64,000 nt of DNA from Sthenelais limicola (lineage: Eukaryota; Annelida; Polychaeta; Phyllodocida; Sigalionidae), in the NCBI GenBank assembly GCA_942159475.1, contig OW804096.1, forward strand, positions 103,886,194-103,950,193. The letters run 5' to 3'. The translations under genes and the position numbers were made by a program. Under the pieces are notes generated by a model. It saw nothing but the letters and a program-made list of their open reading frames with translations. It was not told the DNA's origin and made no database searches. Positions 259 to 43,773 of the stretch are shown here, piece by piece (position 1 is the stretch's first letter; the number at the start of each line of letters is the position of its first letter).

Positions 259-1954
259 GGGCATTAGACCTGGCTCCCAGACCATCACAGAGGGTCTGGG
301 AACAGAACTGCACAAACAGTGGTGTTTACTCCGGCACTTCTGGCCGAGTAGAGTTGTAATAGAAAAACGATTTAATCACCGATTTTTAATGTTCCCAATG
401 GAAGTATATAAATGTTGACAAATGAGCAGAGCATAAATTAATACCTGTTTACGCTCTATTTTGCTTCAGCAAAATAGAGCGTAAACAGGCAGAATTACTC
501 GGGCTATACCTTATAAGACATAAGATGATAAGTCCAATCCGAACCCGGATCCAGAGTTGTCCATTCGCGACAAGGGCTTATCAGTCCAGGGGCTATAGGT
601 CTATACATAGGCTAGTATAGACATATACAATCACTACTGACTAGTATTATAAAACGTCCAGGCCGGGGCCCTAACGTTGCAGGGCCCAAACGTCCCGTGA
701 GCCCCCGGCGAGCCCCTCCAACACATTTCCATAGCTGAAGGGCTTAGGGGGAGGACAGGAGGCAATCATGGGAGGAGGAGGGAGGCAGCGCCAGTGTCAC
801 GGTACTGGATTGCGATCGGTATGAAATGGCTACCGACCAATGATTTTGTTGTTGTTGTAACTTTTATTAGCCTATATTTACAAAAGCGACACTATCGGCG
901 GGAACTAAACTCCCAACATAGGGAGGATCTAAAGCCCTACCGTAGTAATATTATTTTATTGTATAAGCAAAGGTGACAATGTTCCCTAAGGTCGACGACA
1001 GTAGGGAGGCCTTTGCAGAATTTGGTTTACATTTATTCAGATTTGTGCAAGTAGCACCACGCGCAAGTTTAAGACATAAAAAAATATATAAATATATTCA
1101 ATAAACATTCATTATAATTGAATACAATTTTAGAGTACAATTGCTCCACGCAATAATTATTTACAAATTTAAAGGATATTATAAATACACTGATGAGTAA
1201 AGATGTAAATATAAAATAAATATACATATAGCATGCGACAAGAAGCTTGCATCGAGGCAGAGCTTCTAATACTAAGTGCCTATAAAGTCAATATCGAAGC
1301 AGTACTGAGATTACAAGTATATTATATGAGATACATATATTCAGATGAATTATGTCATACTCATATGATGAGGAGGAGAAAACACTGCAAACTGGAAAAA
1401 CTGAAGAGGAGGGCCTATACTAAACCAGCTGACAGGAATTCAATACAGATAATTTTGGTCATTTCAAATGGCTGTTCGTTTAGCTAGATTTGTAAATCTG
1501 ATAGCAGTATCAGCTGTGTGCAGATTTACATCTAAAGAGTTCCAATAAAATGGTATCTTATAATAAATTGATTTTAAAATGATAGGGGTCGTAGTGACCC
1601 GAAGAGCACCTGATGTCACTACCGGCTCTCCATATATGGCAAGGCATGACCCATATATGGCAGGCGTGCCAAAATGACCGGGCTGAACAAATAGATTTAA
1701 GTTAATTCCCTATTAATAGAAATCGGGCTGTTCTCGACCAGGTGCCAGACGATCATCTACCGCAAAGCGTCATCTACCACAAAGTGAGCCGCCAAACTCG
1801 CCACATATTACGACAACCTATGTAGCAGACCCGTGGTCACCCATTACGTCACTTCATGCCTCACTGCTCATGTCTCCCTGCAACCTGTGTTAGTGGTCAG
1901 TGCTGTGCACCACTCAGTAGCTTTAGCACTGACTGATAACTTTGCATCTGGTAT
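259..1954. other. No recognisable gene; AT-rich repeat-derived DNA
   Basis: I see no coding signal here. Short frames at 794-976 and 1233-1487 show no domain and no codon character. The stretch holds a small hairpin (arms 276-283 and 293-300) and the large perfect hairpin at 444-489. Confidence 0.5.
444..489. repeat. Perfect 21-bp hairpin with 4-nt loop
   Basis: Positions 444-464 and 469-489 are exact reverse complements around the loop TTCA at 465-468. The arms begin CCTGTTTACGCTC. There is no T-run and no gene next to it, so a terminator role is not supported. Confidence 0.95.
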
Positions 1955-2070
1955 CAAAATATTTATAACAGTCTCAATGAAACAAAATTCACTTCGGCAG
2001 TTTTCTTAGACTTAAAGAAAGCGTTCGATACTGTCCACCATGATCGTTTATTAACAAAATTAGAAAATTA

Positions 2071-3004
2071 CAAGACAACCTACTACTGCCCAATTGCTAT
2101 AGTATCTTTCGATACTAGGAGGGTAGCCCAGCTGATTTGCCTAACTGCTATTTTCTTTTGCTTTAGATCTAGCTTATCAAGGACCCTAGTATAGATTGAA
2201 TCGTTTTGCTTGAAATCGATTTACAGGTTTAGGATGTTATTAGGAGATATCTAGTGCATGTAACGTATAATTGCATGTAATTTATAACTTTTATCTCGAT
2301 TATAGCTGTACCGATCTTGGCCTGAAAGTAAAATATTGCTTTCGGCAGAAAGTCTTCGAATTTTTATTAAAAGTGGGTATCGTTGGGTGTATCGGTTCAT
2401 CGTTTATATACCAAGAAGTGCATGTAATTAAAACTTTTATTTAACTCAAAACACGGACAGCATTTGAAACACGGACAGCATTTGTATACCAAGGATATAC
2501 ATATAGTTATTTAACTCAAAACACGGACAGCATTTGAAACACGGACAGCATTTGTACACCAAGGATATACATACAGTTTACGCACAAGCTTTCAAACAGC
2601 CTACTGCTATTTTTGTTTTCAGCTGAGTACTTCAGGCAGACAAGGATATCAGCCCATACTAATTTCCACCCCCTGCCTAGTACCCAACCCCCTGTCAATC
2701 ACAGCCAGTCTGTACACCTCCCTCCCTGTCCTCCCTCCTCCCTCCCTCCTCCCTCCCTGTCACTCACAGCAAACACGCCAAGCCAATACACTCCTCCACT
2801 TAGCAACACCAGCCAACACAGTCAAAACAGACCCATGTGGCCACTGACAGGCCACCCCTCCAAATCAGACTTAGCCAGGGGTGCGACAGTCTGGCTCATG
2901 TATAAGTATACCTTTCCTATAGTGATACTAAAAGGAGGCTGCGCCCATTCAATCGAAATACAACTTAAAACAGAAAAGCACTCAGAGGCTACCCTCCTAA
3001 TAAT
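2071..3004 (-). mobile_element. Family A repeat element, copy 1
   Basis: This copy interrupts the LINE RT between codons for LENY and ITGITN, so it is younger than the LINE. It has an internal 13-bp inverted repeat, TAGGAGGGTAGCC at 2116-2128 and its complement at 2987-2999. A small hairpin AGTATC-TTTC-GATACT lies at 2101-2116. Copies at 23300-24544 and 51273-52304 are in the opposite orientation. No transposase frame is visible, so it is probably non-autonomous. The superfamily is not identified and no clear target duplication was found. Confidence 0.65.
2441..2580. repeat. 70-bp tandem duplication inside family A copy 1
   Basis: Two 70-bp units start at 2441 and 2511 with few differences. 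Each unit holds two copies of the word ACACGGACAGCATTTG. The duplication is absent from the other two family A copies as far as I can see. Confidence 0.85.
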
Positions 3005-4240
3005 ATAACTGGAATCACAAACACTTGGTTTAAAAACTACTTATCAAACAGGAAACAGTCTGTACGAATAAATGGTCTTACTTCTAAACAGGAGTCAGTA
3101 ACCTTCGGCATACCCCAAGGAACCATTTTAGGGCCAATCCTATTGTCCATATATATCAATGATCTAAACAAAATGATTGAAAACTCTACAATACAACATT
3201 ATGCCGATGATACGATTCTTATTAATAGTAACAAGAATGAAAAAGAAATGTACCAACAACTTCAGGATAATTTAGACCGAATTGATACATGGTGCAAAGT
3301 TAACAAGATCTCGATGAATGTTTTTCGAAAATGCAGTACGTACAATTTAACATAGGTCGCAAAAAAATAGCAAAGGAGCAAGACAAAACGATCTTATATT
3401 AGGAAATGAGAATCTAGCTCAAGTCAAACAATATAAGTACCTCGGTCTGATCATAGATGAGAAACTAAACTTCCAAGCTCACCTTCAAACAGTTATAAAT
3501 AAGGTGAAATGGAAAGTCAACCTATTACGAAAATCAAGTTATGTCTTAACCAAAAAATCAAAACAGATATTGTAAGAATGCTTATCATCCCATTAATTGA
3601 CTATGGTGATATCTTCTATTCATCTGCATGTCAGAAGTTGATAAGAAGACTGCATACACTTCTGAACTCAGCAATACGATACATACTAAAACTAGAAAAG
3701 AGAACAAATGTTGATCGATATGCCAAACTAGGAATACAAAGCAATAGTTCAAGGGCTAAAAAACATATGCTAGAAGCTGCCTTCTACCTAACACAAACGA
3801 ATAACAATCTTGACAAAAAACGCCTGGCCACTAGAAGCCATGCCAGAAACAGAAGAAATCTTTTAATCAACTAACCGAAAACCACTTTTTATAAAAATAG
3901 CTTTATTTACAGGGCCTAATCGGCCTGGAATTCACTCCCTACCCGAGCACACCAACTTGAAACAAGATTGGAATTCAAAAAGGTACCTAGACGAGCTGGC
4001 GAAAATGGCATAATTATTTATTATGCACCGCATAAAACCAGAACAATCGCCATTCCTCCTTCTGAGATACAAATTATACTGGACAACTTCCTCCATGATT
4101 GGGAAACCCCCCCTATTTCTCATTGTCCAAGACCCAAAAGTTACATGAGTGCCTAAGTTAGAGCCTTAGGGAGAGATTGGACCAAGATTTTTTAGCTCTT
4201 ACTGGTATAATAAGTGCATAACAGACCTCTCACGTTCAGG

Positions 4241-13814: not shown

Positions 13815-14457
13815 TAGCAGTGTCCATTTCCAGAAAGTGTCAGGTCTTGCCCTTAATATCAATAAATTGATAGGTTTTAACGTAGGTGAAAGATTTTGCT
13901 TAAGCCGGTAACCCAGAAAATCGCCTGGGTAGATCGTATGAAGGTGCTGGGTGTCTCTCTCTTCTACCCGGCGAATAGACATGCCCAGAATAACACTAAC
14001 TTTGAATCAGCCTTTGCGAAGGCCAAGGGAGTCATTGCCCTTTGGGAAAAAAACGGATATTACCATAAGGGGCAGAATAATTATTGCCAATGTTCTCATT
14101 GTTCCTCTGTTTCTGTATCTTGCATGCATAATTTCTGTAGATGACAGAATGGTCGTCAAGATCCAAAAAGTGATAGAAAATTTGTTATGGGGGAGAGGCA
14201 GAAATAAGGTTGCAAGAATATACTTATGTAAACACATAGAAGATTAGAAGGTGGCCTGAAGCTACAAGTTATCCGAGCAAAACTAGAGGCGAGCAAGATG
14301 AAATGGTTACAGAGATTAATGATTGACAAAGATGCGAAATGGTCTGCTTTTATGCGACACTCCCAACAGGGAGATATCAAGAAATGTTTCAGAGAAAGAA
14401 GGCAGATTAAAATTAGTTCCCCCCCTCCCCCCCCCCCCCCTTCTATCAGAAAATGCT
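13815..14457 (+). pseudogene. L1/Tx1-like LINE remnant, piece 1 (region after the RT core)
   Basis: Two overlapping frames (13896-14144 and 13951-14247) and downstream codons give a typical post-RT segment: KVLGVS, TIRGRIIIANVLIVPLFLYLAC, then IENLLWGRGRNKVAR and, after a shift, SKMKWLQRLM. This block precedes the zinc-binding domain in L1/Tx1-type ORF2 proteins. It carries frameshifts and a poly-C run at 14419-14440. The open frame that ends at 14457 resumes at 22027 after the inserted LINE, so this is one element split by a later insertion. Confidence 0.8.
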
Positions 14458-14727
14458 AACCATGCTAACCATCATAACAACATGGCGACCCTACCTGCAA
14501 GACGCGGGAAGATCGTGTGACGGACAAAATACTCGTATCTCTTAATCCTGTGAATTCTGGGGACTGTTTTTATCGCCAATCCAAGAGAAAAGTCTGCCTG
14601 TCTACACGTATCGCCTTGAAATATATCCATGAACTTCTTTGAGTGAGTTATATCGATATTAAATATCACTGATCGATATTGGGTGAAACGAATGACCATT
14701 GTTGGTTTGTTTACCGGTCACGCTCAC

Positions 14728-14804
14728 CACTGCCTGTCTACTTGGCTGTCACTCTGACTGTCAACACTGCCTGTCTACTTGGCTGTCACTCTGACTGTCA
14801 ACAC
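14728..14804 (+). repeat. 37-bp tandem repeat upstream of LINE ORF1
   Basis: Two units containing TGCCTGTCTACTTGGCTG start at about 14731 and 14768. They lie in the LINE 5' leader directly before the ORF1 start, where LINE internal promoters often carry short repeats. Confidence 0.8.
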
Positions 14805-14823
14805 TGATCATAAGCTGGTTGTC

Positions 14824-16511
14824 ATGAAAAGGGCAGCTGACGGGCCCACAGGAAACTCTCCCGTCAACAAAAGGCTTATTGACTCCAAGATGGAACTGGA
14901 AACCATTCCGGACGACCCGTGGGAAGCAGATCCTTCATTAACCACTCAAGATGCCATCAAAAATCATGCTGTGAGCTACAACACAGCTGTGCGATCGATA
15001 GAAGATAATCGTACTCTGTGTGTCGAGGTGGCAACAAACTTGACAGAGGAAATCCTCGTGAATACCCAACGGTTCGAGCTGTCCAAACGACTGGAAAGGA
15101 AATTGGATGAGTTAGAATCAAAGGTAGACACATTGACTTATCAACTTGAGCGTCAAACTATGATAAATAACGAGGTTTTTACGAAGCTACGGCAAAACTG
15201 CATTGTAATGAATGGTATATTGGAACGAAGAGACGAGAATCTAGAATCTACATGTGCCAAAATCATCAAAATGGTACTGCCATATTTCTCTACTGAACAC
15301 CTCGATGAAATATATCGCATAGTCACCCACAACAAGAAACAGGGGACTCGACGACCTGACACAATATCGGTACGTTTCAAGAATCTTAAGGATAAAAAAG
15401 CCTTCATGCAACAGAAAGCAAAGCTGTTCGATCACTCTAAATTTCCCCCTCAGCAATACCCAGCTCATGCTCACTGGTCATTTGAAGATGATGTCAACCC
15501 TGACGTCCGTCGCCATCGCAGCCTTCTCCGTCAAATAGTGAAAAAGGCCACAAATACCAACGTTGATGTGAATGCACGAGTCAAAGGAGACAAGATTTAC
15601 ATTAAAGGACATACCTATGATGAATCCCAAATGAGCCTCCTCCCTGTATCTGTCCAACCTGGTAATATTAAGGTGCAAAAGGTAGCTGGAGGTCTAGCAT
15701 ATCATAGCATCCACGTTTGGCCGTCAAACATGTTCCCATGCCGTTTTAAAGTCCTGAGAATACCATTCACCTCTGTAGAGCACGCGTTTGTGTACTTCAA
15801 GGCACTCAAGAACGGCAACGACACTGCTGCAAATAAAATAGGGAAAATGAAAGACCCGTAAAAGAGATAGGAGGTAAAATCAATACAGATAGTGATTGGG
15901 CAAGGAAAGAAGAATCATACATGCGCTCCATCATTAAAGCCAAATTTGACCAAGACAGAGACCTTCGTGCAAAACTACTGGCCACAGGCGAAATGAGGCT
16001 TATTGAAGCTACCCATGACGAAAGGTGGGGTTGCGGAGTGTATTTAGGCAGTCTACACTTAAAAACAGGCATATGGAAAGGCCTAAATCGCCAAGGAGAA
16101 ATCTTAATGAATGTACGTGACGAGCTTAAAGAAACCTATAAGCACAAACTTACCAACTTAACGATGTTGTCTCCTCCACCGAAGCCTGTCGAATGGAAAG
16201 ACCTAAGTCCGCAGAGTCAAGGCAAAGAGCAACGTACTCAACATTTCCGTCAATTCCCGTCACCTCAGGAACATAAGGCCAATCAGGTACAAATGGAGCT
16301 TGAACAGAGCGCATCTCACGACCTGGAACAGGAGGAAGAAGACGAATTAAACAATGAAACGATGATTCATATTGACGAACCTCAAGAAATGAACTCGCCG
16401 AAAGCCAGAAGTACGCCCCACCCATCTCTACGCAAACAACTAAACAGGTCGTCTCAAGAACTAAATGACACTATGACACGTCTACGAGAGGCAATGACCC
16501 AGAGAAAGTAA
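14824..16511 (+). pseudogene. LINE ORF1: coiled coil, RRM-like segment and NADAR domain
   Basis: I chose ATG 14824 because the open frame's earlier start at 14779 is TTG. The first frame (to a stop at 15861) has a predicted coiled coil (about residues 80-125, LERKLDELESKVDTLTYQLE) and an L1 ORF1p-like nucleic-acid-binding middle. It then begins a NADAR domain with SVEHAFVYFKAL (Glu codon at 15778). A one-base shift near 15855 moves the reading to the frame ending at 16511. There the domain continues with DWARKEESYM, KAKFDQDRDLRAKLLATGE, the ERWGCG motif and GEILMNVRDEL. NADAR proteins such as E. coli YbiA are N-glycosidases, and some remove ADP-ribose from guanine in DNA. A charged tail of about 120 residues follows. 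NADAR identity is strong; any role in retrotransposition is inference. Confidence 0.8.
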
Positions 16512-17212
16512 ATACTTACATTGTAGAACCAGGTAGATAAACTTTCAGCCATTTTTTCATAATATTTCCACGACATAAACGTATCCAAAGAAGGTAAACA
16601 TTGCGGAACTCTGACACACATGCTTCTTCACGGAAGTCACAAACCGGAAGTATCTCTGCAGCAAATGTTGTTTACGGTTTAACCAGCAATCCACGCAAAC
16701 TAGCTTGGTTAAAAATTAAAGTGAAATGAGGATAATATGCCTATATTATATCTTATCATATTATTGGTTTGTATCTATCAAGTGCGATCAAATCATAATT
16801 ATACATGATATCGTTAATGCGGGCATACGCCAACTTCCTGTAATGGCTGCCATCGACCAGGTCTATCGTAAAATGGGTTAGTAGAAAAGTTAATTTCATC
16901 TCAAACTTTGCCTAGACAGTATCCACGGGTACGAAAATGTGTAAATATGTTAGTTCCCCATGAATGAACGTTCACTGAGAATTTGAGTAACCTATATGTC
17001 TGGGGAGTAAATAAAACACGTGTTTTGTGTTATCGATCTCGCCACGGTCATATCGCCGAGCCTAGAATGGCACCCTCTGTTTTTATACATGCTATCTCCA
17101 ATGTTTGTACTTGTTCTTATCCCTTATACCTGTTCGAAAACTTCCTGCTATGCATTAGCTCATGTGAGCTACAAATTTTGCCAAGTCAAAGACCAAATAT
17201 CTATTTTAAAAT
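16512..17212 (+). other. Spacer between LINE ORF1 and ORF2
   Basis: No coding signal was found. This is unusually long for an inter-ORF spacer in a LINE and may contain the decayed start of ORF2 or regulatory sequence. Confidence 0.4.
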
Positions 17213-19510
17213 GTGATGGGATTGGATAGCCTAGAAAACATTGTACAACTGTCTGGCATAGGTATTCTTTCGTTGAATGTACGATCAGTAAGAAACAAGG
17301 TGATTGAAATTAGTGAAACACTACTACAGGGAAATACTCGAATATTATGTATGCAAGAGTCATGGCTCACGAAATTAGATAGTGATGAGGTCCTTAATGT
17401 CAATCCAGACTACGAATTATACAGGTTCGATAGGCAAACAGAAAAAAAAGGTATCAAAAATCAGGAGGTGGACTATGTATTTATATTCACACGGATTTTC
17501 ATGTTGAACAATGGGTGTTTGCAGATACCAATGTATGTTCTCCTAATCTTGAATCCCATTCTGTAATTGTAAAACCTGGGCAAAGAAGAAAAATTATCCT
17601 TCTCAACATCTATCGCCCACCGTCTGGGGACAAGACCCTATTTATCACAGAGCTAAAACACCAACTTGATGACATACAACATAAGGACAGGAGAAGTACC
17701 ATATGTCTATGTGGTGATATTAATATTAATATGCTTGATGACCAATCCCAGGAGGCCTCCGATTTAGCCAGCATGCTTGCTGATTATCATTTGCTTCCTT
17801 ATATTGATGTTCCAACATGCTATAATAATAACTCCTCATCCCTTATAGACATTGTATATTCTGATCACCCCCATATAAAATCATCTGGTGTTATAAACTA
17901 TAATATTTCAGATCATCTATGTACCTTTATCCAGTTAAAAAAATCAAAAGAACAGAAGGTGACCACTGTTAAATCAGGTAGAAAATACTATAGGATTGAT
18001 GACAACAATTTGAGTGAATACTTGAATCCCCTCAATGAGAATATTGAATCCTTTGGTATAAATACTCTATCGACTGATGACATGGCTGGGTATAAAAAAA
18101 TGCATAACTGATTATTTAGACGATAAATGTCCTACCAAGACATAAAGATAACCAGGAAAGGTAGATTTTCTCTTCGTTATGACATCATCTTACTGATAAA
18201 AGAAAGAGATCGTCTATTTAAAAAAGCCAGAAATTCAGGTTTACAAGCTGACTTATTAGCAGCCTCTACATCAAGGAAAAACGTTGTACGTCAGATAAAT
18301 CAATACAAACGAGAAGAAATTAGAAAACAATTAAGAAACTGCCAAAAAACCAGCAAAAAAAATTCTGGAGAAATATAGGTAACCTATTTGGATCAGGAAC
18401 TTCGTCCCTCCCTTCCTCATTTATACACAAAGGTAATGAATTATCTGGACAAGATGCCTGTAATGCTTTGAATGAATTTTATAGTAAAATGGGTCTTCCA
18501 GGAGCAGTCGATGATGACGGTTTCAAAAATTATCTTTCTGACGATATTGATGTTCTCTCATGTAGTAATATTCTTATAAAAGAGGAGTCGGTTACTAAAT
18601 ATATACAGGAAATAGACATTAATAAGAGTAGTGGTTTCTCTTGGATTAATGCTAATACTCTAAAAAAGTTTTTAATTCGCTTACCTAAGCAGATTACCTT
18701 GCTTTTTAAGAAATGTATAGCTATCAGCTTAATCCCGACCGAATGGAAAGAATACTTGGTAAAACCGATACCCAAATCAGGAAACCTACAACTTTTTAAT
18801 AATCTCAGGCCTATTGCCTTGGTCCCTCTTATGTCTAAGCTGTTGGAAAAATGTATTTATGAATCGATTACTTCACACATGGAGAGAAACAACTTGTATA
18901 CACCATACCAAGGGGGTTTTAGATCGAATCGATCGACTGACATTAGTCTCTTTGATTTTTTCACTCCTATTATAAACGGCTTTAACTCCGGCAAGATGAG
19001 TATTGCTAATTACTACGACATCTCTAAAGCCTTTAACTGTATCAATCATGACATATTGTATTTTAAGCTGAGGTATTATCAATTTAACCCGAAGATAACA
19101 AAAATTGTTATGAATTATTTACTGAACAGGACTTAAAGAACTATGTTAAATGAATTTATCTCAACTCCTATTACTATCAACAAAGGGGTACCACAAGGCA
19201 GTCATCTAGGACCGATTGTGTTTCTAATCTATATTAACGATCTACCTGTTTGTGTGAATAATTTGATTTTTCCCTCAGCTGATATCAATATGACTATGTA
19301 TGCCGATGATACGGCCCTTAGTGTAACGAGCAATGATGTAAACGAGTGTGTAAGAATATCCCAAGAGGCTACGAATGAGATTAATATCTGGATGTCTGCA
19401 AATAAGTTAAAACTAAATGAAAAAAAATGCCAGGTCCAACTACTAGGTACGAAAAACAAAATAAAGAGGATTAACGTTGCAGCTCTAGGTAGCATTTTCT
19501 TAAATGGTCA
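17213..19510 (+). pseudogene. LINE ORF2, endonuclease and RT part
   Basis: APE-type endonuclease is seen in ILSLNVRSVRNK and MQESWL (frame 17213-17566), then in the next frame INIYRPPSGD, LCGDININM and the SDH motif near 17905. RT follows in 18468-19136: KPIPKSGN, NNLRPIALVP, GFRSNRSTD and YDISKAFNCINHD. The last block (19143-19510) has GVPQGSHLGP, YINDL and the catalytic YADD near 19306. There are at least two frameshifts (near 17500 and 18370) and in-frame stops at about 18111 and 19136. The frame is cut at 19510 by the antisense LINE and resumes at 21032. In life it would nick target DNA and copy the LINE RNA in place. Confidence 0.88.
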
Positions 19511-21025
19511 TATATATATATATAAAGATTTTTATTCCGAATTATTTGATCATACATATAATACTTTGCACATCATACTTATTCAATACAATAAAACAGG
19601 AATTGGGCATTAATAATCCTCTACCATGAGGTCTTCCAGACCGCCCAAAATAAAATAACTTTAATTAAAGGTTGTAATGTATAGTAAAATGTTTGTCCAT
19701 AGTCCTTTCGTTATCATCTTTTTTGTATAGTTCGTATTTATTTATTTCACTGGCGTCGGTCGTCGGTGATGTTTGCTGACTTTTGTTGCGATGTCTTGTT
19801 AATCTGTTACGATATTGTTATTTATTTTATGTCCATCATGTTTGATAGAGATCACGTCATCTCACTAAGATCCATATTTGGATTTATGTACATCCTTATG
19901 TACTTATGTAGAATATAATTGTAAATTACTACCAGTTCATATTGATTCAGTCGTAGACCAGGAACATTATTTTTACATATAACATTAAACAGGATAACAT
20001 GAGCATAAGGTCAAGTTATTTAACAGAATTACTTGTACAAGAAATTAGCAATGCCTACTTTAAAGACTGGTAGGACATCATACATCCACAACTATGTCCT
20101 CAGAGTAATTCTAAGTAACACCGTTCATACTAAATAGGATTGACTGAAAAGTCAATAAGGACCCCCCACCCTTGAACATCGGTATATCGATCTTAACTTT
20201 GACTGGGCTTTTACAAATCCCAGAATTATCCCCCCAATACAATTTTCCCAAGCAATGGATTTCAAATTATAGAGGAATCAGATTCTACGTCAGACTTAAG
20301 GAAAGGATCAAATGCCAGATGATACTGGTGCTTTAAATACATTTTAAAATCCTTTCTCGCATTTGTCATCTGTATTTTTGGTTCAAGTCTGTTCCATAGA
20401 GTTGGAATACAATATAGGTATGACTTTCTGAATAACTCGTTATTTGGATGAGGGTAAAGTAGTTTCTTTCCCTCCGAAAGTCCCCTCAGTCGGACTTTCC
20501 TCCTGTCAACATTTACTATGTCTCTCGTCCGTAAGAAAGCTAAATCTAAAATATGGGTTTCTCTTCTTGTTTGAAGAGAAGTAATATTTAGTTTGTTATG
20601 AATGTCTCTAGTACTGGACAATCTAGTAAGATGTAATATTATTTTTAAAGCAGAATTTTGTAGAGTCTGGAGTTTCATAATCTGCTTTTGTGGTGCAGAG
20701 TTATAAAAGACATCTCCATAATCTATAATGGGTCTGATCATAGTTTTGTATAGTGAAAGTAGAACAGATTTATCACAGATATTGTAAAGCTTGGATAGTG
20801 ACCATATTTTAGTTCGTACCAGGTTTACTTTCTTGGTAAGGAATTTATTAAAGTTCAATTGTTTATCTATCTCAATTCCGAGGTATTTATATGAATCTAC
20901 ATTCTCAAGTTCTTGCCCTTTAATATTATATCGAGTAGAGTTGTTTACATCATTCCGAGCTCTAATAGTGAGACTCTTACATTTATTAATAAAACAATTT
21001 ATATATAAACTGTCATAAGGTTTCT
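19511..21025 (-). mobile_element. 5'-truncated antisense LINE nested in the NADAR LINE
   Basis: In its own sense this insert starts within the RT C-terminal region (about 21015) and ends at 19511 in a TA-repeat tail next to a TTTTATTC word (AATAAA on the minus strand). TGGTCA flanks both sides (19505-19510 and 21026-21031). The 3' UTR spans about 19511-20261. Confidence 0.75.
20262..21011 (-). pseudogene. RT C-terminal region of the nested LINE
   Basis: An open frame of about 250 codons has the post-RT blocks INKCKSLTI, DSYKYLGIEID, DYGDVFYNSAPQ and the ending TLWNRLEPKIQ. It closely resembles the LINE at 24928-25710, so the two belong to one CR1/L2-like family. The catalytic RT core is absent through 5' truncation, so the copy is non-functional although the frame is uninterrupted. 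This suggests a fairly recent insertion. Confidence 0.85.
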
Positions 21026-21031
21026 TGGTCA

Positions 21032-21610
21032 AAAATTGTCAATTATCTTGGATTTAGAGTTGATCCTAACCTATCCATGAACAATCACTTCACTAGGCTG
21101 AAATGTTCTGCCTCGTTTAAACTGGTTCAATTACAAAGAATCTGTCAATATCTAACCAGGGAAATGACAAAAACGATCGTGAAAACACACATCTTTTCTG
21201 TTCTAGAATATGGTCTCCTTTTCCTAGACATGACAACATGTATTATCAAACAGAAACTACAAAGAATACTGAATAGGGCAGTAAGGTTGATTTATTTAGA
21301 CGATCGAAGGGACATTGATACCCTCAGTCGACTGTGTAATGTTGATAATCTGACAAAAAGATCAAAAATCTCCCTATTAAGAATTATGAATAATAAAAAG
21401 AACACACTTCGTGATGTAGTTGAAAGACCAACAAGATTGTACGAAGGTATTGTTTTGATCACAGCCAGACCAAATACAGAAAAAGTCAGAAAAAGCCCAC
21501 ATTTCAATGGTCCACATGAATGGAATAAACTTCCTCCACATGTGAGAAACATGGAGTGGAAAGCCATGAAAGTCTTTCTGAAGGGTGATGCGCTATGGTG
21601 GACACAATGA
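21032..21610 (+). pseudogene. LINE ORF2, C-terminal part (continuation of 17213-19510)
   Basis: Just after the nested insert the + strand frame resumes with IVNYLGFRVDPNLSMNNH and runs to a stop at 21610. It includes SVLEYGLLFLD and HFNGPHEWNKLPPHVRN, the usual post-RT tail of CR1/L2-like proteins. The start is set by the insertion boundary; the ATG at 21077 is only internal. A few residues are missing or shifted at the junction. The 3' UTR follows to the AATAAA at 22000. Confidence 0.85.
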
Positions 21611-22026
21611 TCCTTACCTTATAACTCTGCTGCTATGTAACATGAAATACCTGTTTTTATTTATTCTATAAGGGCGATTCTATCATTATGACTATTGGAG
21701 AAAAAAATCAAAAATAAATGTTGTACATAAAACGATTGAAATATCAGGTTGGTAAAATTTGAGTTACCTCATCTTTGTTGATATGTGTCGTCTTGCGACC
21801 TAATCTAGTTCAAACACCTGATTCGCTATGATAAACCGTGACGACTTTATTGCTCACGAATGTCATCTTGCATTGAATATACTCTATATAATAATCTAGA
21901 AACTTAAAACTTAAATTATAATAATCTTGATGTATAATAATTAATTTTTTGCCATTGAGTGTGCATGAGATTACTATGTTCTACATGGAAATGTCCTCAA
22001 TAAAATTTCTTTAAACAAAAAATGCT

Positions 22027-22356
22027 GTTGAGAGTTGCTGTTATCTTGTCAGCCCACTCAGGCACCTTTTATAATGCCTCCATTGCAAGCAAAAAATCAT
22101 GTCAGGATAGAAATATTGAATAGATAGAACTGTTCAGGCTCCATGACCTGGACATATCAAATGTCGAAATGAAAGAATGGTATGTTAATCCGTACAGATG
22201 TAGGCGGAATGTGAGGCACAAATCCTTCCAGTTTATGGTGCTAAACAGGATAATTGTATCTAATGAATATCTAGAAAACATCCACATCAAATTGTCTGTA
22301 AAATGTAGCTATTGTGACGAGGATGACACAATATTTCACTTTTTGTTTTCTCAGCC
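22027..22356 (+). pseudogene. L1/Tx1-like LINE remnant, piece 2 (zinc-binding region)
   Basis: The frame continues piece 1 across the inserted LINE. It holds the typical KSFQFMVLNRIIVSNEYL block and the start of the zf-RVT zinc-binding motif, CSYCDEDDTIFHF (22300-22345). One in-frame stop occurs near 22119. The protein then breaks off at a 12-bp hairpin (22345-22371), and the next residues expected in the family appear at 43786. Confidence 0.8.
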
Positions 22357-22371
22357 ATAGGCTGAGAAAAC
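22345..22371. repeat. Perfect 12-bp hairpin at the broken LINE end
   Basis: Arms GTTTTCTCAGCC (22345-22356) and its exact complement (22360-22371) enclose a 3-nt loop, ATA. The hairpin sits where the LINE reading frame stops. Confidence 0.9.
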
Positions 22372-24544: not shown

Positions 24545-25715
24545 TTATATAATTTTCCTTCATTAGAGACCTAACTTATCCTGAACTAGATAGATTTTAT
24601 AACTAACTTTCCATCCTGTACCGGGTGGGTGAAAATTTTAGGTCTTCTATGTTAACAGAGTATAATTTAATTAAGGTAAACAAATTCGATAATTTCCTTC
24701 TCATCATTTTAATACATTCGATGAGTAGGGCAACAATTTTACAGTAATTTTACAGTAATGCTTACAGTAACCTCCCCATCGGATGGTCCGATTTTCCGAT
24801 ATCTCGGTCATCTATTCTAGGTCTTACATGCCTAATCAACCCCCCTTCCCCCCACCTCTAAGAAGATTTTGTCCAGCTATGACTAGGTGATAGTTTGTAA
24901 CTTAATAATTAGACAATCACAAGTACATTATTCCTCCTTGAGGAATTTATCGAATTCTTGAGGGTAGACATTTTTTAAATAGGTTCTGAATTCTTTCCTC
25001 GTCTTTATCGCTCTAGGTTTTTGAGGTAGTTCATTCCAGAGGGATGTTAGTTTGTATAAGTAAGAATTTCTAAATTTTTCATTCTTTGGTTGTGGGACCT
25101 TGAGTTTTATACCTTTACTAAGGCCTCTAAGAGCTACCTTCCTGTCATCAACATTATCAGGCGACAATGTCCTTCTAAATGCCATCTCAAGCAAATGTGC
25201 ATTTCTCCTGGTAATAAGTGATGGGAATTTTACTTCCTGATGTAAAGCTTTCGAGCTGGTATATTTAGGAAGCTTTAAAGATATTTTCAGTGCTGAGTTT
25301 TGAAGGGCTTGAAGCCTATCAAGATACTTTATAGGGGCTGCCTGATAAAAAATATCCCCATAATCAATGTGGGGCAAAATTGTAACTTTATAAATCATTA
25401 ACATAGTCTTCTTGTCACAAATACCGTATAGTTTGGAGAGTGACTTTACCTTGTTTCTGATAACTGCTATTTTTTTGTCTAAGAATGTTTTAAAATTCAG
25501 GTTTTCGTCAATGTCTACTCCCAAGAATTTATAATGTTTAACCTGTTCGAGCTGTTGGGTATATATACTATATTTATCCACCGTATTCTTCATTGGTCCT
25601 GAACTAATTGTCAGTGATTTGCATTTCTTAATGTTTAATGATATCTTGTTTCTGGCACACCATATTGCCACTCTATCAAGATCCTCCTGAAGACTCTTTA
25701 TACAATCAGTTTTTT
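24545..25715 (-). pseudogene. CR1/L2-like LINE, 3' half (downstream of the family B insert)
   Basis: The open frame from 25710 down to 24928 encodes KSLQEDLDRVAIW, LNIKKCKSLTI, HYKFLGVDID, DYGDIFYQAAP and LWNELPQKPR, the post-RT region. The 3' UTR extends to about 24545. Its upstream RT core is at 30708-30900 on the same strand, separated by the family B element. The frame joins exactly across that gap, so this is one LINE split in two. It is closely related to the nested LINE at 19511-21025 and is 5'-truncated. Confidence 0.85.
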
Positions 25716-26117: not shown

Positions 26118-29100
26118 TTACATAGATTCAATTAACCGATTATTAGGTTTATGAGGTCTGCTGGATCTTCGAATTACTGGTTCTGCTATTGCAGCTCTCG
26201 GTGGTGATAAGATTACTGGTCTGCTTACTTCTAGCGGAATTGTAGGATTTTTCTCTACTACTTTGTTCTGACTACCTGTTTCACTACCAACTAGTACCTC
26301 GTTTTCAGACTCTGAATTACTATTGAAATAACTACTTTCTTGCGGCACTTTCAGTAGTTGCCGTCTGTTTCTTCTGTACCTACTACCTTCCTCTGTTACA
26401 AGGTGATAAGATCTTGGGGAGACTTCCCTTTCTACCTGAGCTTTCGTACTCCAACGTTTATTTGCATCTTGTAGCCTTACAAATTCACCTGGCTGTAATG
26501 GATGCAAGTCTCTCGCCCCTTTGTTGTATTGATACACTTGTTGTTCATTATAGAATGTGTCTGGTCCTTTTACGTTAGGTTCATTAATACCTGAGACCTT
26601 GCTTTTACAATTATCTGCTAGGAGGTTTAGCCTGCTCCTTACATTTCGACCCATCAGGATTTCTGATGGTGACTTACCCCCGTCTCTAGGTGATGATCTA
26701 TATGCTAGGAGACCAAGATAAGGGTCTTGTTTTAACTCATTGGCCTTGTTAAAGATTTGCTTGATTATACCCACCGCTCTCTCGCTCTTACCGTTTGACT
26801 GAGGGTAGCGTGGGCTACTGGTGCGATGTTCAAACCCATAATCTGTTACAAACTTCTTAAATGTTGTGGAGACATATTGGGGACTGTTATCGGTGACTAG
26901 GATTTTTGGGATCCCATGTCTCGCAAAGATTGCTCTGAGATTGCTAACAATTGCTTCAGATGTGGTTGAGGTGAGGCTTACCACCTCAGGATAATTTGAC
27001 AAATAATCAACTATTACTAAGTAATCTTTACCCTGCCACTGAAACAGGTCAGATCCAACCATATCCCAAGGACCTGCATTAAGTTTATCCTGATCTACCT
27101 GGTGGGTTTCTTTCCTTTGGCTATAAGTAAATTTAATACATGCCTCACAATTGCCACTAATTCGTTCAATATCCTTGTTTAAGGTTGGCCAGTATACAAC
27201 ATTTCTGGCTCTGCGCTTTTGTTTTTCCGCCCCGAAATGTCCTTCATGTATTAATGACAAAATCTCTGATCGCATAGACGTGGGTACCACTACTCTACTT
27301 CCTCTAAGTATTATACCATTTGCTAGTGACAACTCATCTTTGATATTGCTATAGGCATTACATTTACCTGATCTCCATCCCTTTTCAATACAATCTTTTA
27401 CTGTTGAGAGTACAATATCTTTCTCAGTTTCATCTGCCATTTGGCTTATCTTTTCTTTTGACACCTGGAGATTTTCGTATACAAAGTTAACCTGTGCCTC
27501 TAGTTCAGCATTGAGTTCACTTTCTTGTGTCTGTATGGTGTTCACCTGACTTGACCTTGACAATGTGTCAGCTATGTACATCTCTTTCCCCGGGACCCAC
27601 ATGCACTTGACATCATACCTTTGAATTTTTATCATCATCCTCTGTATGCGAGGTGTTAGATCATTTAACGATTTGTGAAAGAAAGCCAATAGGGGCTTGT
27701 GATCAGTTTCAAGAATTATGTTTGTACGCCCGTAAACAAAGTGGTGAAATTTAGAGACTCCAAATAACATAGCTAAGCATTCTTTCTCTATTTGAGCGTA
27801 TCTCGTCTCAGCAGGTGTTAACGACCTTGAAGCATAGGCTATTGGCTTCCACCCATCAGAATTTTGCTGTAGGAGGACCGTTCCCAACCCATCTTTACTA
27901 GCATCCGAAGATATTTTGAGTGTACAATTGGGATCATAGTAAGTTAATACAGGCTGTGTCGATAAAACGTTCTTTAGATCACTCCATTCTTTCTCGTGTC
28001 CTTCTGACCAGTCCCATATCACATTTTTACCCATTAACTTCCTGATGTTTGTACAGCGATGTGATAAATTTGGTATGAACCGTCCAACATAATTAATCAT
28101 TCCCATTACCCGCTGTAGTTCCTCTTTCGATTGCGGGCTCTTCATTTTGAGGATTGCATCTACCCTTTCCTTGGTTGGGTTAATGCCTTTTGCTGACAGT
28201 TCATCTCCTAGGAAAGTGATCTTATTCTTCCTCACCTCACATTTGGCCTTGTTCATTACCAGACCATGTTTCTTTATTCTCTGCTGTACTTGTTCGAGTC
28301 TCGCGTCATGTTCCTCCATGGTCCTTCCCCAGACCAGTATGTCATCTATGTACACCCGCACGCCATCTAATCCTTCAAACAGTTGTTCCATTGTTCTGTG
28401 GAATACCTCAGGCGCAGATGCCAGGCCGTAGGGCAGCCTATTGTAGCGGTACCTGCCGAAGGGAGAATTAAAAGTTGTTAGCTTGGCTGACTCCTCCGTC
28501 AACGGTAGTTGCCAAAAGGCCTGTGACATGTCTAATTTTGTGAACACATTCGCATTTGCCATCATCGAAAATATATCTTCCTTAGTCGGAAGCTGGTAAT
28601 GTTCCCTTCTGAGAACTTTGTTAAGGTCTCGTGGGTCCAAACAAACCCTAATGCTGCCATTTGGCTTATTTACTATTACACTTTCCGAGACCCATTCTGT
28701 TGGTTCCTGTTGTCGAGAAATGACCCCCAGCTTTTCCATTCTGTTTAGTTCATTTCTGAGAGGTTCTCGCACTGAGATCGGTATTCTTCTGGCAGGCCTA
28801 ATTACTGGCCTCGCCCCATCTTCTATTCTGATGTGATATTTAACTGGAAGTTCAGATAGGTGGTTACTTACAGCTGGTATGTTCTGCTGCCAGTCAGTTT
28901 CCTTAGCCTCTACCATCCTTACTCTCTTTATGAGACCGAATCTCTCACTGTCGTCACCGCCTATCAGTGATATGCCCCTCTGGGCGATAATAAAGGTAGC
29001 ATTGTGGTCTCGCAGTCCCACCTTCAGGCGCAGGTATACCTTCCCAATCACTGGTATCCTTTCATCATTATAGCTGAACAGTTTGACATTAACAGGTCTC

Positions 29101-30155
29101 GGCTTTGGCCTGTTCTTGATAGTACGGAAATCCTCAAGACTTATTATGTTCGCCCCTGCACCCGTGTCAAGCATGAAGGGTAGGCTCGAGTTGTTGATCG
29201 TGATCACCTCCGACCATTTGGTTGATTCGGAGAGTCGTACTTCCGTCACACGTACTGCATTGACAAACAAATCATTATCCTGTATGATTTCCTCTGCTTG
29301 TTCTCGTACTATCCTAACTTTCGTTTGGCAACATCTGGCATAGTGACCACGTTTGTTGCAGCTTGTACAGATAGATTTGAAGGCCGGGCATTCACGCCAT
29401 ACATGCTTAGTCCCACATCGGCGACAGTCATACTCTTTCCTTGAGGTCGCACCTGATTGGGCGGGCTGGTCACGTGCTGTGGCTTCCTCGTTTGGCGCCG
29501 TTTTGAATGGCGTCTTTCGTACCGCTCCAATCAGTTCACCTTCCCCAGCGTTAATCCGAATCATCTGATTCTGGGCTCTTTCAGCCGCCTTGCAAATCCT
29601 TATGGCTTCAGCCTCTGTCAGATCAGGGTTGCGAAGCATCTTTTCTGTTAGCTTTTTATCACGCACTCCCATGACTATTCTGTCCCGTAATATTGTGTTT
29701 TCCACCGGGGCTAGGTCACATGTAGCCATCTTGAGTCGCAAGTCTGTTACAAACACGTCGAAGGATTCCCCTTCTTCCTGCTGCCGTCCAAAAAAATTAT
29801 ATCTCTCGTAGACAATGTTCTTTACTGGAGTACAGTATTCGTCGAATTTGCGTATGACCAATTCGAAGTTATCTGGGTCTTCAGCTGGTATTTCCGCGAC
29901 TCCTTCTATTTCATCAGCCGGGACCGCTACCACTGCTGGTACTCTAGGTGCCCAGTGAAATGTATCGTAGACATCCATCGCCTCCTTGCCCGCTACCGCG
30001 AGGAGCATGGCTACCGCGAGCTCCCCATCCGTGCGAGCATTTACTCTGTTTGCCTTGATGTACCATCGAATCTGCTTCTTGAATTCTTTCCAGCGTGCGT
30101 CTACATTTCCCTCCTTCATCGTCATTTGTCCCGGAGGCTTAATACTTGTCGACAT
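26118..30155 (-). CDS. gag-pol: Gypsy-1 Gag-Pol polyprotein
   Basis: This single frame of 1345 codons starts at ATG 30155 (MSTSIKPPGQ). The open frame begins further upstream, inside the LTR, without a better start. Order: Gag; two CCHC zinc knuckles (C244-x2-C-x3-H-x4-C and C263-x2-C-x4-H-x4-C); aspartic protease with DTG at 330; RT with LDMSQAFW (540s) and YIDD at 602-605; RNase H with SSDASKDG near 750; integrase with an HHCC finger (970, 973, 1003, 1006) and D1036, D1089, E1125 (35 residues between the last two). All catalytic residues looked for are present. Gag and Pol are fused in one frame with no frameshift or stop, so Pol is probably released by the protease. No envelope frame. Confidence 0.95.
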   Translation of the reverse strand: MSTSIKPPGQMTMKEGNVDARWKEFKKQIRWYIKANRVNARTDGELAVAMLLAVAGKEAMDVYDTFHWAPRVPAVVAVPADEIEGVAEIPAEDPDNFELVIRKFDEYCTPVKNIVYERYNFFGRQQEEGESFDVFVTDLRLKMATCDLAPVENTILRDRIVMGVRDKKLTEKMLRNPDLTEAEAIRICKAAERAQNQMIRINAGEGELIGAVRKTPFKTAPNEEATARDQPAQSGATSRKEYDCRRCGTKHVWRECPAFKSICTSCNKRGHYARCCQTKVRIVREQAEEIIQDNDLFVNAVRVTEVRLSESTKWSEVITINNSSLPFMLDTGAGANIISLEDFRTIKNRPKPRPVNVKLFSYNDERIPVIGKVYLRLKVGLRDHNATFIIAQRGISLIGGDDSERFGLIKRVRMVEAKETDWQQNIPAVSNHLSELPVKYHIRIEDGARPVIRPARRIPISVREPLRNELNRMEKLGVISRQQEPTEWVSESVIVNKPNGSIRVCLDPRDLNKVLRREHYQLPTKEDIFSMMANANVFTKLDMSQAFWQLPLTEESAKLTTFNSPFGRYRYNRLPYGLASAPEVFHRTMEQLFEGLDGVRVYIDDILVWGRTMEEHDARLEQVQQRIKKHGLVMNKAKCEVRKNKITFLGDELSAKGINPTKERVDAILKMKSPQSKEELQRVMGMINYVGRFIPNLSHRCTNIRKLMGKNVIWDWSEGHEKEWSDLKNVLSTQPVLTYYDPNCTLKISSDASKDGLGTVLLQQNSDGWKPIAYASRSLTPAETRYAQIEKECLAMLFGVSKFHHFVYGRTNIILETDHKPLLAFFHKSLNDLTPRIQRMMIKIQRYDVKCMWVPGKEMYIADTLSRSSQVNTIQTQESELNAELEAQVNFVYENLQVSKEKISQMADETEKDIVLSTVKDCIEKGWRSGKCNAYSNIKDELSLANGIILRGSRVVVPTSMRSEILSLIHEGHFGAEKQKRRARNVVYWPTLNKDIERISGNCEACIKFTYSQRKETHQVDQDKLNAGPWDMVGSDLFQWQGKDYLVIVDYLSNYPEVVSLTSTTSEAIVSNLRAIFARHGIPKILVTDNSPQYVSTTFKKFVTDYGFEHRTSSPRYPQSNGKSERAVGIIKQIFNKANELKQDPYLGLLAYRSSPRDGGKSPSEILMGRNVRSRLNLLADNCKSKVSGINEPNVKGPDTFYNEQQVYQYNKGARDLHPLQPGEFVRLQDANKRWSTKAQVEREVSPRSYHLVTEEGSRYRRNRRQLLKVPQESSYFNSNSESENEVLVGSETGSQNKVVEKNPTIPLEVSRPVILSPPRAAIAEPVIRRSSRPHKPNNRLIESM

Positions 30156-30170
30156 CGTGAGTTTTCCTAT

Positions 30171-30182
30171 TTCCTGGTACCA
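30171..30182 (-). other. Gypsy-1 primer-binding site
   Basis: In element sense, TGGTACCAGGAA follows the 5' LTR with no gap. The TGG start pairs with a tRNA CCA end. The following bases could suit a leucine-type acceptor, but the tRNA is not settled. Confidence 0.75.
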
Positions 30183-30304
30183 TGTAATGATAAGTACGTG
30201 TGAACAACTCAAGCTTATAAGTTCTACTGACGTTTATTCAAATCCCTCCAGGGCAGTCCCCTGGTGGCACATCCAAGACTCCACTAGGTGGAGCCACTCT
30301 TACA
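30183..30304 (-). repeat. Gypsy-1 5' LTR
   Basis: Identical to 25970-26091. At 122 bp this is short for a Ty3/gypsy LTR. Confidence 0.95.
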
Positions 30305-31146: not shown

Positions 31147-31571
31147 TGTAGTGAACCGCAGATTCGTGGGCGCGAGGTTACGAAATTCCGTAAAGAATCA
31201 CGAATACGAGGAGATTCGTTTGAACCTGGTTTATTTCCCAAAGGTATACAGTTACAAAGGTTTTGTTACTGAAGCAAGGGTGCTTAATTTGAACAACAGA
31301 AGTATCTCGGTCCGCGGCGCGGCTCGAGTCCGTAGTGTTAAGCGAAGCCTGGATCCCCTTGCGGAGGTAGTAGTATCCTCCGCCTACCGTCCGTCGGAGG
31401 GTGTCTGCAGTGTCGTCTGCACGGTGGTCGTATGTCGCCCCCTGACGGAACTGGCCGGAACTGGTGGTAGTCGTCTCCGGCGCTGGTAGAAGTGCCCCCG
31501 CTGTCGTAGCCTGGATGGTGATTGGCGATAGTCGACAGCCTCGCTGTATTCCGGGTGGCGGACCCACTACA
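31147..31571 (-). repeat. Gypsy-2 3' LTR
   Basis: 425 bp, identical to 43308-43732. Open frames seen in the LTR on both strands are duplicated with it and have no domain. Confidence 0.95.
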
Positions 31572-31583
31572 CTGCCCCCTCAC
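31572..31583 (-). other. Gypsy-2 polypurine tract
   Basis: In element sense, GTGAGGGGGCAG lies directly upstream of the 3' LTR. Confidence 0.75.
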
Positions 31584-32018
31584 TAGTTGGAGTTGAAGGG
31601 GTCCACGATAACTAGTTATGTAGGGTCCGCCGTGGCACTAAGGAGATCCTCGTGGCTCCAGATCCTCGTGTGCAGCGGGGCAAATGTTATGCCACTCCGC
31701 CGCACGGATCCTAGAGCCAGGCTTGCACTCGCCCCCAAGGTTCGTAGCCTTCATAGGCCTAAAGAGGCCACCGGACATGCCTGTCCGTCCCAGTCTCGCA
31801 GCGCGGTACAACTGGAAGCGTACATTCGAAGCAATAAAAAATTTTCGTGCACGAGCTTTATTAATAAAAGCGAGGCTAGTGAGCCATACTAGCCTTGCGG
31901 ATAAAAACCACCACCTGCGAGGAGGAGAGCCCCCCCCTCGCTGTGAGATGAACCCACACGAGACAGCCGCCTCGGGGGATCGCAGTGCTGATCCCAATCC
32001 CTATGGGGGGGGGGAGTT
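31584..32018 (-). other. Gypsy-2 region between ORF3 and the 3' LTR
   Basis: 435 bp of GC-rich sequence with no convincing frame. It is probably the 3' untranslated part of the ORF3 RNA. Confidence 0.6.
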
Positions 32019-35000: not shown

Positions 35001-35177
35001 CGCATCGGGGTCTTTTAGGCCATCCGACGGGCTCGCGTCTGAGTCATCCGAGTGACTTGCCGGACCTTCTACCTCACGTTTGAGGCGGCGGTCGCGCTCA
35101 CGACGAACACGCCGTTTGCGATTGGCTGCAGTCTCCTCGAAGGATTCTGCGGCCGAGTGTCCGCGGTCATCGCTCAT
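32019..35177 (-). CDS. Gypsy-2 ORF3: C2H2-like fingers plus long coiled coil, function unknown
   Basis: 1052 codons from ATG 35177, in sense with gag and pol and in the position where env would lie. The N-terminus is basic. Two finger-like motifs follow: C167-x4-C172...H193-x4-H198 and C207-x4-C212...H225-x5-H231. Then come a lysine-rich, nuclear-signal-like stretch (about 296-330), a proline/alanine-rich linker, a short coiled coil (about 460-530) and a long charged coiled coil (about 660-800). The long coil contains a 15-residue repeat of the type REAEEQRLRQEEAAL. The C-terminus is acidic. I see no signal peptide, no transmembrane segment and no furin-like site, so it does not look like an envelope. 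It may be a nucleic-acid-binding or scaffold protein. The long intact frame in a young element suggests selection, but the family is not recognised. Confidence 0.85.
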   Translation of the reverse strand: MSDDRGHSAAESFEETAANRKRRVRRERDRRLKREVEGPASHSDDSDASPSDGLKDPDAAAGKYRRHKALNAAAKKLKWGDGKKPVLSLLPANERERKEAVRDPSEVDRFPDYPEYHKAVSVEEYKRFFETCTNPRKVLRTADLAYSFEADRKLQMAMLLYEEGSRCPFLLCRTEALVGKPQIFKSRLLFTRHLCEVHTPVTPVWRCPIGYCPVTGDRRSDIVAHGSKEPHKMARKKAVDKIMPVLERVGVSYLPQWGYKSTLHLASATSEAILRNAKEQNFTSKYPLEKDITKPKRTGKTKRKKKGSDKSDKSDRSDTEKRPEKRPKLVDAPIPDRNAWLDGYKIPSTKEKEFPNLPAPTGLTVLQKSRRPAPAAAEGRAPSATVPDPQPGPSRPTAAARAPPPEVDRAGIARTRKVVADRAAVLRLALQESLEGFCVDIAETYRPLDNVDRLVDSQAEIAQLMEDLNRSLNEQELLVERVNLLDTQVNGLRRENQELHAEVTLLRAQAAQRAMQPASPPPPRVETAPPVQNPILRLEQRKLEVREKFNRALRAEPTIPPGFGPGDRQTAKPLFGGVGRGTPTHAQARAPTRVANTKVSSTAGASTLANATPLCGTETEMEVDPHEGSTARKEEKAAAQRRFEQGRVEAERLRVQRETTLAETRLVKEALERKLREEETLRQAEDLRLQREEAALREAEEQRLRQEEAALRQAEQQRLQQEEAVRLAETAKREAFERQRLLDKEQSAHDMAFFREEEEKEEAERQQAKLNQEIQELRETESRLRVEALNSRRPAFPLSHGIEPPSIQVVDPAGIPMDTGGTLIGVTDLTQQRENQSVCTGTGLAPRMSAAKWGPNMPSASQSAEAEDSVEVTPAASSTPRSYRPPRGDVSSATKRLSFIEDKTLVARPAPPPSGEASTKLDEALPSLDTFSLPVTAPTGTSVEGVEGNGDAIALPWPRTDEGTTPVDHLAAAGSGSDKSVEISDGEEHELLQESDSETALIYDDLGQEDNVVVVPDSRFDPFDEALIGNLSLHGISKTEGDAEAKEAGEFV
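33010..33145 (-). repeat. 45-bp coding tandem repeat in ORF3
   Basis: About three units of 45 bp encode the 15-residue coiled-coil repeat. The period is a whole number of codons, so gain or loss of units keeps the frame. Confidence 0.75.
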
Positions 35178-41209: not shown

Positions 41210-41215
41210 TTTCCC
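41173..41215 (-). promoter_or_regulatory. Programmed -1 frameshift signal at the gag-pol junction
   Basis: In element sense the slippery heptamer G GGA AAT (41215-41209) is in the gag frame and is followed directly by the gag stop TGA (41208-41206). After a 6-nt spacer comes a stem GGGTCTCG (41202-41195) with exact complement CGAGACCC (41180-41173) and a 14-nt loop. The loop word GGAAG (41191-41187) could pair with CTTCC at 41136-41132 to form a pseudoknot. Slippage moves the ribosome precisely into the pol frame. Confidence 0.8.
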
Positions 41216-43239: not shown

Positions 43240-43295
43240 CGTCTGACTCTCAGCATCGGGGATCCTTTCGGGAACTTCCCTACTCGGCCCTAGGC

Positions 43296-43306
43296 TCACG
43301 GCACCA
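43296..43306 (-). other. Gypsy-2 primer-binding site
   Basis: In element sense, TGGTGCCGTGA begins one base after the 5' LTR. TGG matches the tRNA CCA end. The tRNA is not identified. Confidence 0.75.
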
Positions 43307-43307
43307 A

Positions 43308-43732: not shown

Positions 43733-43773
43733 AATAGATAAACCAAACTTTACTTGATAATTTCTTAACTTAG

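Follow-up and report, generated by a model that had tools for sequence, protein, structure and literature searches.

A NADAR domain is built into the first open reading frame (ORF1) of a long interspersed nuclear element (LINE) of the annelid Sthenelais limicola. It is mobile as part of one ORF1-ORF2 unit with many copies in the genome, and it is under strong purifying selection. The copy that was analyzed lies in a stretch of 64,000 nucleotides of contig OW804096.1, called the window here, to whose positions the coordinates refer. This copy is broken and dead, with the NADAR distributed over two frames, A and B, of its ORF1 (Table 1). The NADAR motifs quoted in a first-pass annotation of this DNA were all found, in NADAR order.

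Frame B matched the Pfam NADAR profile (PF08719) with 71.7 bits (E 1.1e-19, profile positions 71-163), above the curated cut-off of 35.1 bits. The tail of frame A, which alone is below the cut-off, matched with 20.1 bits (E 8e-4, positions 11-67), so that the two pieces span positions 11-163 of the profile without overlap. An AlphaFold2 model of frame A, obtained with 18 aligned relatives and a mean pLDDT (predicted local distance difference test) of 74.6, contains a long helix (residues 41-124), an RNA recognition motif (RRM), a C-terminal domain (CTD) and the first NADAR elements. Foldseek gave four matches to this model with E < 0.001, all of them human LINE-1 ORF1p (best 2yko, E 4.6e-6), while Pfam Transposase_22 (PF02994) did not match frame A at E up to 1, being either too far diverged or absent. 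The modeling supports a type II (L1-like) ORF1 with a predicted coiled coil and an L1-type RRM and CTD. The first-pass claim that a coiled coil and RRM-like part run directly into NADAR was borne out by the model, the Foldseek matches and the Pfam matches on both frames.

The frameshift inside the NADAR of the window copy could point to a chance capture, or a read-through artefact, in this copy only. This explanation is refuted by the relatives of the element. When the same genome (1.13 Gb, 161 contigs) was searched at the DNA level with positions 15000-16500, 16 candidates in 18 matches were obtained; five, the window included, span the query fully or to within 2 bases. The four siblings among them, 96, 81, 78 and 77% identical to the query, all carry the NADAR. 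In two of them (L040 and L041), ORF1 is a single open frame through the NADAR, crossing the window's frameshift site, and intact relatives of this ORF1, which the annotation had suggested searching for, are thus present in the same genome.

Genome-wide counts were made on the best 150 scored of 5561 loose Pfam NADAR candidates; all 150 passed the Pfam cut-off, and the match was stop-free in 148. Twenty plus-strand copies were fetched with 9.9 kb each for the reading of ORF1 and ORF2. ORF1 sequence, comprising at least the CTD, precedes the NADAR in the same open frame in all 20 loci, the 5' part of the frame being missing in L014, L017 and L018. Outside this genome, the ENA protein P0003 (459 aa) has the complete ORF1-NADAR architecture, and its NADAR adopts the YbiA fold in a structure model. 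With the NADAR pair alone as the query, 39 ENA proteins were retrieved. Counted by reading, 31 of them (P0004-P0033 and P0036) belong to the same sequence family, with CTD sequence ahead of the NADAR in 19 and little but NADAR in 12, and the other eight look like ordinary bacterial NADARs. Chance capture was therefore rejected, since the fusion recurs in the loci, the siblings, P0003 and the ENA family. No related copy lacking the domain appeared among the 20 loci and four siblings.

Mobility of the whole unit is shown by its copies. A 6.1-kb unit with ORF1-NADAR, ORF2 and a poly(A) tail is present, 99.2% identical and between non-matching flanks, in L009, L010 and L013, each on a different contig, and the 5'-truncated L017 is flanked by an 11-bp duplication. 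In 12 of the 20 loci, the downstream ORF2 is open without interruption over at least 940 codons, and in one more over 895; ORF1 is separated from ORF2, or from the first open piece of ORF2, by 564-2989 bp. The 20 loci form five deep ORF1 groups (A to E), all carrying the fusion, with 22-37% identity between groups and 41-99, 45-65 and 45-57% within A, C and D, respectively. L034 is a longer copy of group E in which sequence for the whole ORF1 is present.

In the window, ORF1-NADAR and ORF2 are separated by a 700-bp gap and differ in G+C content (0.43 vs. about 0.33), and the similarity of sibling L041 ends after ORF1, as would be expected if the two ORFs derived from separate elements. Such an origin is highly improbable: in the other three siblings the similarity is continuous from ORF1 through the gap to the start of ORF2, with identical order, the NADAR and ORF2 trees agree, and both ORFs are enclosed by a split flanking LINE. 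The reading frames on either side of positions 14458-22018 look as if a single older LINE ORF2 C-terminal part, presumably of the L1/Tx1 type judging by its motifs, had been divided between them; a PDB sequence search with part of this older fragment found nothing. Since about 0.2 shared 8-bp words are expected by chance in the stretches compared, the duplicated word AAAATGCT was weighed only jointly with the split flanking LINE. Features of an apurinic endonuclease (APE)-type LINE are present, namely endonuclease and reverse transcriptase (RT) in ORF2 and the target-site duplication; the window element ends in a short A-run, and a clear poly(A) is found in other copies. The order of nesting is that the older LINE was split by the NADAR LINE, which was later split by the minus-strand LINE piece at 19511-21040.

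The NADAR tree contained 49 rows (the 31 copies used for the selection analysis below, L029, L030, the window, P0003, eight of the 31 ENA family proteins and six of the eight other proteins) and placed the window beside groups A and B with support of 97/84. The ORF2 tree contained 17 rows, the window and 16 of the 20 loci, after exclusion of L017, L018, L024 and L025 as too broken; the window and three loci were entered as joined pieces. Here, a 100/100 branch sets groups C and D apart, with A, B and the window on its other side. Both trees give the window a long branch, and its position inside the A/B side of the ORF2 tree is not fixed. The branch separating the LINE NADARs from bacterial and stand-alone NADARs has support of 90/33, and a single capture of the LINE NADARs is therefore not settled by the tree.

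In 18 of the 20 loci, the motif GVPQGS, which we take to indicate a Jockey-type RT, was found downstream on the same strand; the window has it too, and the other two loci show just YADD. The motifs RQGCP and QGCxLS, which we assume to mark L1/Tx1-type RTs (Tx1 lies within the L1 superfamily), were found downstream in none of the 20 loci nor in the window element. The RT of the NADAR LINEs looks to be of the Jockey-superfamily type, a clade name taken only from the motif GVPQGS. Against this apparent Jockey-superfamily type, the first-pass label of a CR1/L2-like LINE is just roughly right.

The ratio of nonsynonymous to synonymous substitution (dN/dS) across the NADAR part, proposed as a check in the first-pass annotation, was calculated by Nei-Gojobori counts. 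The set consisted of 31 copies from 34 distinct fetched places, without L029 and L030 (stand-alone NADARs) and L031 (a 5'-truncated LINE piece). In the window's subfamily, the L040-L041 pair gave 0.03 for the NADAR (dS 1.17), 0.02 for the RRM-CTD and 0.12 for the tail. Twelve other pairs, which are not independent, with NADAR dS of 0.1-1.5, gave a median of 0.061 and a maximum of 0.33, and the three highest values all include the broken copy L033. Among deep pairs, dN of the NADAR was lower than that of the RRM-CTD in 265 of 287 and lower than that of the tail in 274 of 274.

The ADP-ribose contacts named in PMC11543638 (E43, K50, W89, E125, D130 and W133) were mapped onto the LINE sequences by spacing and alignment. 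E43, W89, E125 and W133 are kept in all 31 copies, D130 in 30 and K or R at position 50 in 30, and the window copy has all six residues. The NADAR in LINE ORF1 may work as a glycohydrolase that frees the RNA or DNA of the element from ADP-ribose added by the host, which is the likeliest of the roles considered but is held tentatively and at somewhat less than even confidence. A de-ADP-ribosylation or counter-transferase role is compatible with the retained active site and with the reactions published for eukaryotic NADARs. The coiled coil would assemble ORF1p into multimers and the RRM-CTD would hold the LINE RNA, so that the ribonucleoprotein (RNP) would bear an array of NADARs right at the nucleic acid. 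There, the NADAR would hydrolyze the N-glycosidic bond of guanine-linked ADP-ribose, which, if left in place, could block translation, reverse transcription or the use of target-primed cDNA. The putative host writer would be an ADP-ribosyltransferase, guanine-specific or of another kind. In animal RNA viruses, including annelid and bivalve picornaviruses, NADARs are argued from their distribution to undo host ADP-ribosylation (PMC9503650).

Several points weigh against this reading. The 31 copies were drawn from the 150 best NADAR scores, which favors conserved ones; the siblings, picked by DNA similarity to the window ORF1, are less biased toward a conserved NADAR. The 20 loci and four siblings were gathered with NADAR or ORF1 as bait and cannot give the share of LINEs without NADAR. 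Position 50 is R in 13 of the 31 copies, and a K-to-R change abolished rescue in cells (PMC11543638). L024 has E at position 50, L020 has N at D130, and the pyrophosphate contact R79 is aligned with G in the window copy. In addition, other NADARs have been shown to act, among other things, on riboflavin intermediates (PMC9303266, PMC11543638), and SNA-3, a trans-splicing protein essential in nematodes, depends on its NADAR domains (PMC9303266). A role in RNA handling without a link to defence is therefore a serious competitor.

The arginine at position 50 would also suit a purely binding or structural, non-catalytic module of ORF1p, and a folding or binding role would equally give strong constraint. 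This possibility is quite improbable, since the retention of E43, W89, E125, D130 and W133 goes beyond the expectation from folding alone. In the RNA-handling alternative, the NADAR would act on the LINE RNA intermediate (cap, end or modified base) or in RNA metabolism, and not against a host mark. RNA processing has been proposed for the Gypsy and Tx1 NADARs (PMC12477816), the NADAR adjoins the predicted RNA-binding RRM-CTD, and SNA-3, with three NADAR domains, is required for SL1 trans-splicing and is inactivated by mutations of key NADAR residues (PMC9303266). However, the measured NADAR reactions are N-glycosidic, on riboflavin intermediates and guanine-linked ADP-ribose, with no RNA-processing reaction found in the literature covered, and this alternative is considered rather unlikely. 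Finally, the NADAR could clear soluble ADP-ribose derivatives (host alarm signals) or toxic metabolites and be merely carried by ORF1p, as suggested for phage NADARs (PMC9503650) and in line with the YbiA-type glutamate E125 of all 31 copies. This is distinctly unlikely, since RNA-virus NADARs are argued to target macromolecules (PMC9503650) and the NADAR is fused behind the ORF1 CTD in all five groups, which favors a nucleic-acid target.

A NADAR in LINE ORF1 is already known in kind, since YbiA-family NADAR domains are apparent in ORF1 of several Tx1 LINE families of Crassostrea gigas, and Ectocarpus Gypsy elements carry one in their Pol (PMC12477816). The oyster LINEs share the location of the domain with the window family, but they were classed as Tx1 and described as divergent hits, and the part of that source covered has no selection test, whereas here the GVPQGS motif was found and groups, mobility, selection and active site were described. 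That paper was the only one joining YbiA, LINE, ORF1 and retrotransposon within the literature covered. No Jockey-type RT with a NADAR, copy numbers or groups, selection test or extra ORF was found in the NADAR-retrotransposon literature, as far as it was covered. The order of coiled coil, RRM and CTD is that of type II ORF1s, such as human LINE-1 ORF1p and those of CR1 and L2 lineages, but the ORF1 types in the covered part of PMC4120745 bear PHD, CCHC, zinc-finger or esterase modules and not NADAR. The SGNH esterase ORF1 of ZfL2-1 and CR1-like LINEs is likewise an accessory enzyme in a LINE ORF1, and esterase ORF1ps have been termed unique among ORF1ps in having enzymatic function (PMC3905857); the enzyme is a different one, and here an SGNH-like frame, if present, is a separate ORF after ORF1-NADAR.

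The DarT1-NADAR toxin-antitoxin systems and eukaryotic NADARs of PMC11543638 share the fold, as modeled for P0003, and the ADP-ribose contact residues. In contrast to DarT1-NADAR, no DarT partner was seen, the glutamate is of the YbiA type instead of the DarT1-linked aspartate, and the domain is fused to ORF1. Nematode SNA-3 is likewise an animal NADAR protein tied to RNA, but it is a nematode-specific host gene and no mobile element (PMC9303266). The NADARs of positive-strand RNA viruses of invertebrates also ride on a selfish RNA-based element and are predicted to undo host ADP-ribosylation, but they are located in viral polyproteins and not in a retrotransposon (PMC9503650).

A separate frame of about 150-220 codons lies between ORF1-NADAR and ORF2 in 10 of the 20 loci (groups C, D and E), and none was seen in A and B. 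Its motifs DSRG and G-I-C are invariant and D-G-x-H nearly so; with weak Pfam support, it seems SGNH-hydrolase-like. A LINE with both NADAR and an esterase-like ORF would be a three-ORF element. Stand-alone NADAR ORFs occur at L029 and L030, and perhaps at G000:C1:89380390-89380815. In L029, a neighboring frame has motifs reminiscent of a Maverick/Polinton protein-primed polymerase, without a Pfam match. Two classes of mobile element in this genome may thus carry a NADAR.

Table 1. Features of the NADAR LINE in the window (unprefixed positions), its ORF1 groups, and related ORFs at other loci.
Feature	Position or loci	Strand	Remarks
5' target-site duplication AAAATGCT	14450-14457	.	8-bp word recurring at 22019-22026
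NADAR LINE, single inserted element with later minus-strand insert	14458-22018	+	split flanking LINE, duplication, collinear siblings (3/4)
37-bp tandem repeat, 2.2 copies, 5' untranslated part	14724-14806	+	
ORF1, whole	14824-16508	+	single frameshift near 15.86 kb splits frames A and B
ORF1 frame A	14824-15858	+	coiled coil ~14944-15195, RRM ~15199-15489, CTD ~15499-15639, first third of NADAR 15664-15858
ORF1 frame B	15858-16508	+	remaining NADAR (to ~16130), then charged tail
NADAR in ORF1	~15664-16130	+	spans both frames
NADAR residues E319 and K326	15778-15801	+	equivalents of E43 and K50 of P. nicotianae NADAR
Frame B residues W14, E50, D54, W57	within 15858-16508	+	equivalents of W89, E125, D130, W133
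Non-coding gap ORF1-ORF2 (~700 bp)	16512-17212	+	collinear in 3/4 siblings
ORF2 endonuclease, two frames	17213-18108	+	PF14529 E 3.6e-8 on 17515-18108; further piece 17213-17563
ORF2 RT, two broken pieces	18468-19510	+	RVT_1 E 1.5e-8 and 3.4e-15; GVPQGSHLGP, YADD
Later nested insertion with minus-strand LINE C-terminal piece (ORF 20265-21038)	19511-21040	-	approximate edges, by eye
ORF2 C-terminal part, continuing past insert	21041-21607	+	
3' untranslated part	21608-22018	+	
3' target-site duplication AAAATGCT	22019-22026	.	
Older LINE fragment (ORF2 C-terminal part), insertion target	13896-14449	+	seems to resume at ~22027-22370
ORF1 group A	L009, L010, L013, L014, L016, L017, L019, L024, L026		
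ORF1 group B	L020		
ORF1 group C	L012, L015, L021, L023, L025, L027		
ORF1 group D	L011, L022, L028		
ORF1 group E	L018		
SGNH-like ORF	L011:3270-3899, L012:3361-3981, L015:3348-3914, L018:3645-4298, L021:3515-4123	+	
SGNH-like ORF	L022:3280-3726, L023:3317-3937, L025:3359-3982, L027:3355-3975, L028:3498-4118	+	
Stand-alone NADAR ORF, 162 codons	L029:1494-1979	-	near-identical to that of L030
Stand-alone NADAR ORF, 162 codons	L030:1447-1932	+	near-identical to that of L029; Pfam E 2e-30

The window contains other mobile elements. The Pol of a long terminal repeat (LTR) retrotransposon is a 1371-codon open frame at 26121-30233 (-) with protease, RT, RNase H and integrase matches. A probable long LTR retrotransposon extends over 31181-43749 (-), with likely LTRs at 31181-31579 and 43342-43749, where frames start alike over the printed stretch, and its Pol at 36803-41215; its open frames at 32022-35198 (1059 codons) and 41209-43338 (710 codons) had no Pfam match at E 0.001. 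Other LINE C-terminal or RT fragments are located at 24931-25713 (-), 20265-21038 (-) and 1916-3979 (+), the two on the minus strand being 51% identical over 238 residues.

The roles of NADAR in animals have been called unclear (PMC11125620), nematode trans-splicing being one known role (PMC9303266). Among the catalytic modules of LINE ORF1, NADAR is the second likely enzyme, after the SGNH esterase. Since the domain is kept at dN/dS of about 0.03-0.06 in the ORF1 of abundant LINEs, its target is likely within the retrotransposition cycle, and nucleic-acid ADP-ribosylation as an animal defence thereby becomes a testable question. The candidate host enzyme would be a guanine writer like CARP-1, which is known from clams. 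In its widest form, the proposal is that invertebrate LINEs of a large set with deep splits bring along on the RNP a de-ADP-ribosylase of their own for nucleic acids, in an arms race with host guanine ADP-ribosylation of retrotransposon RNA or cDNA; as a whole, this is somewhat unlikely. If true, it would be the first case of genome defence by ADP-ribosylation against a retrotransposon, together with its counter-measure.
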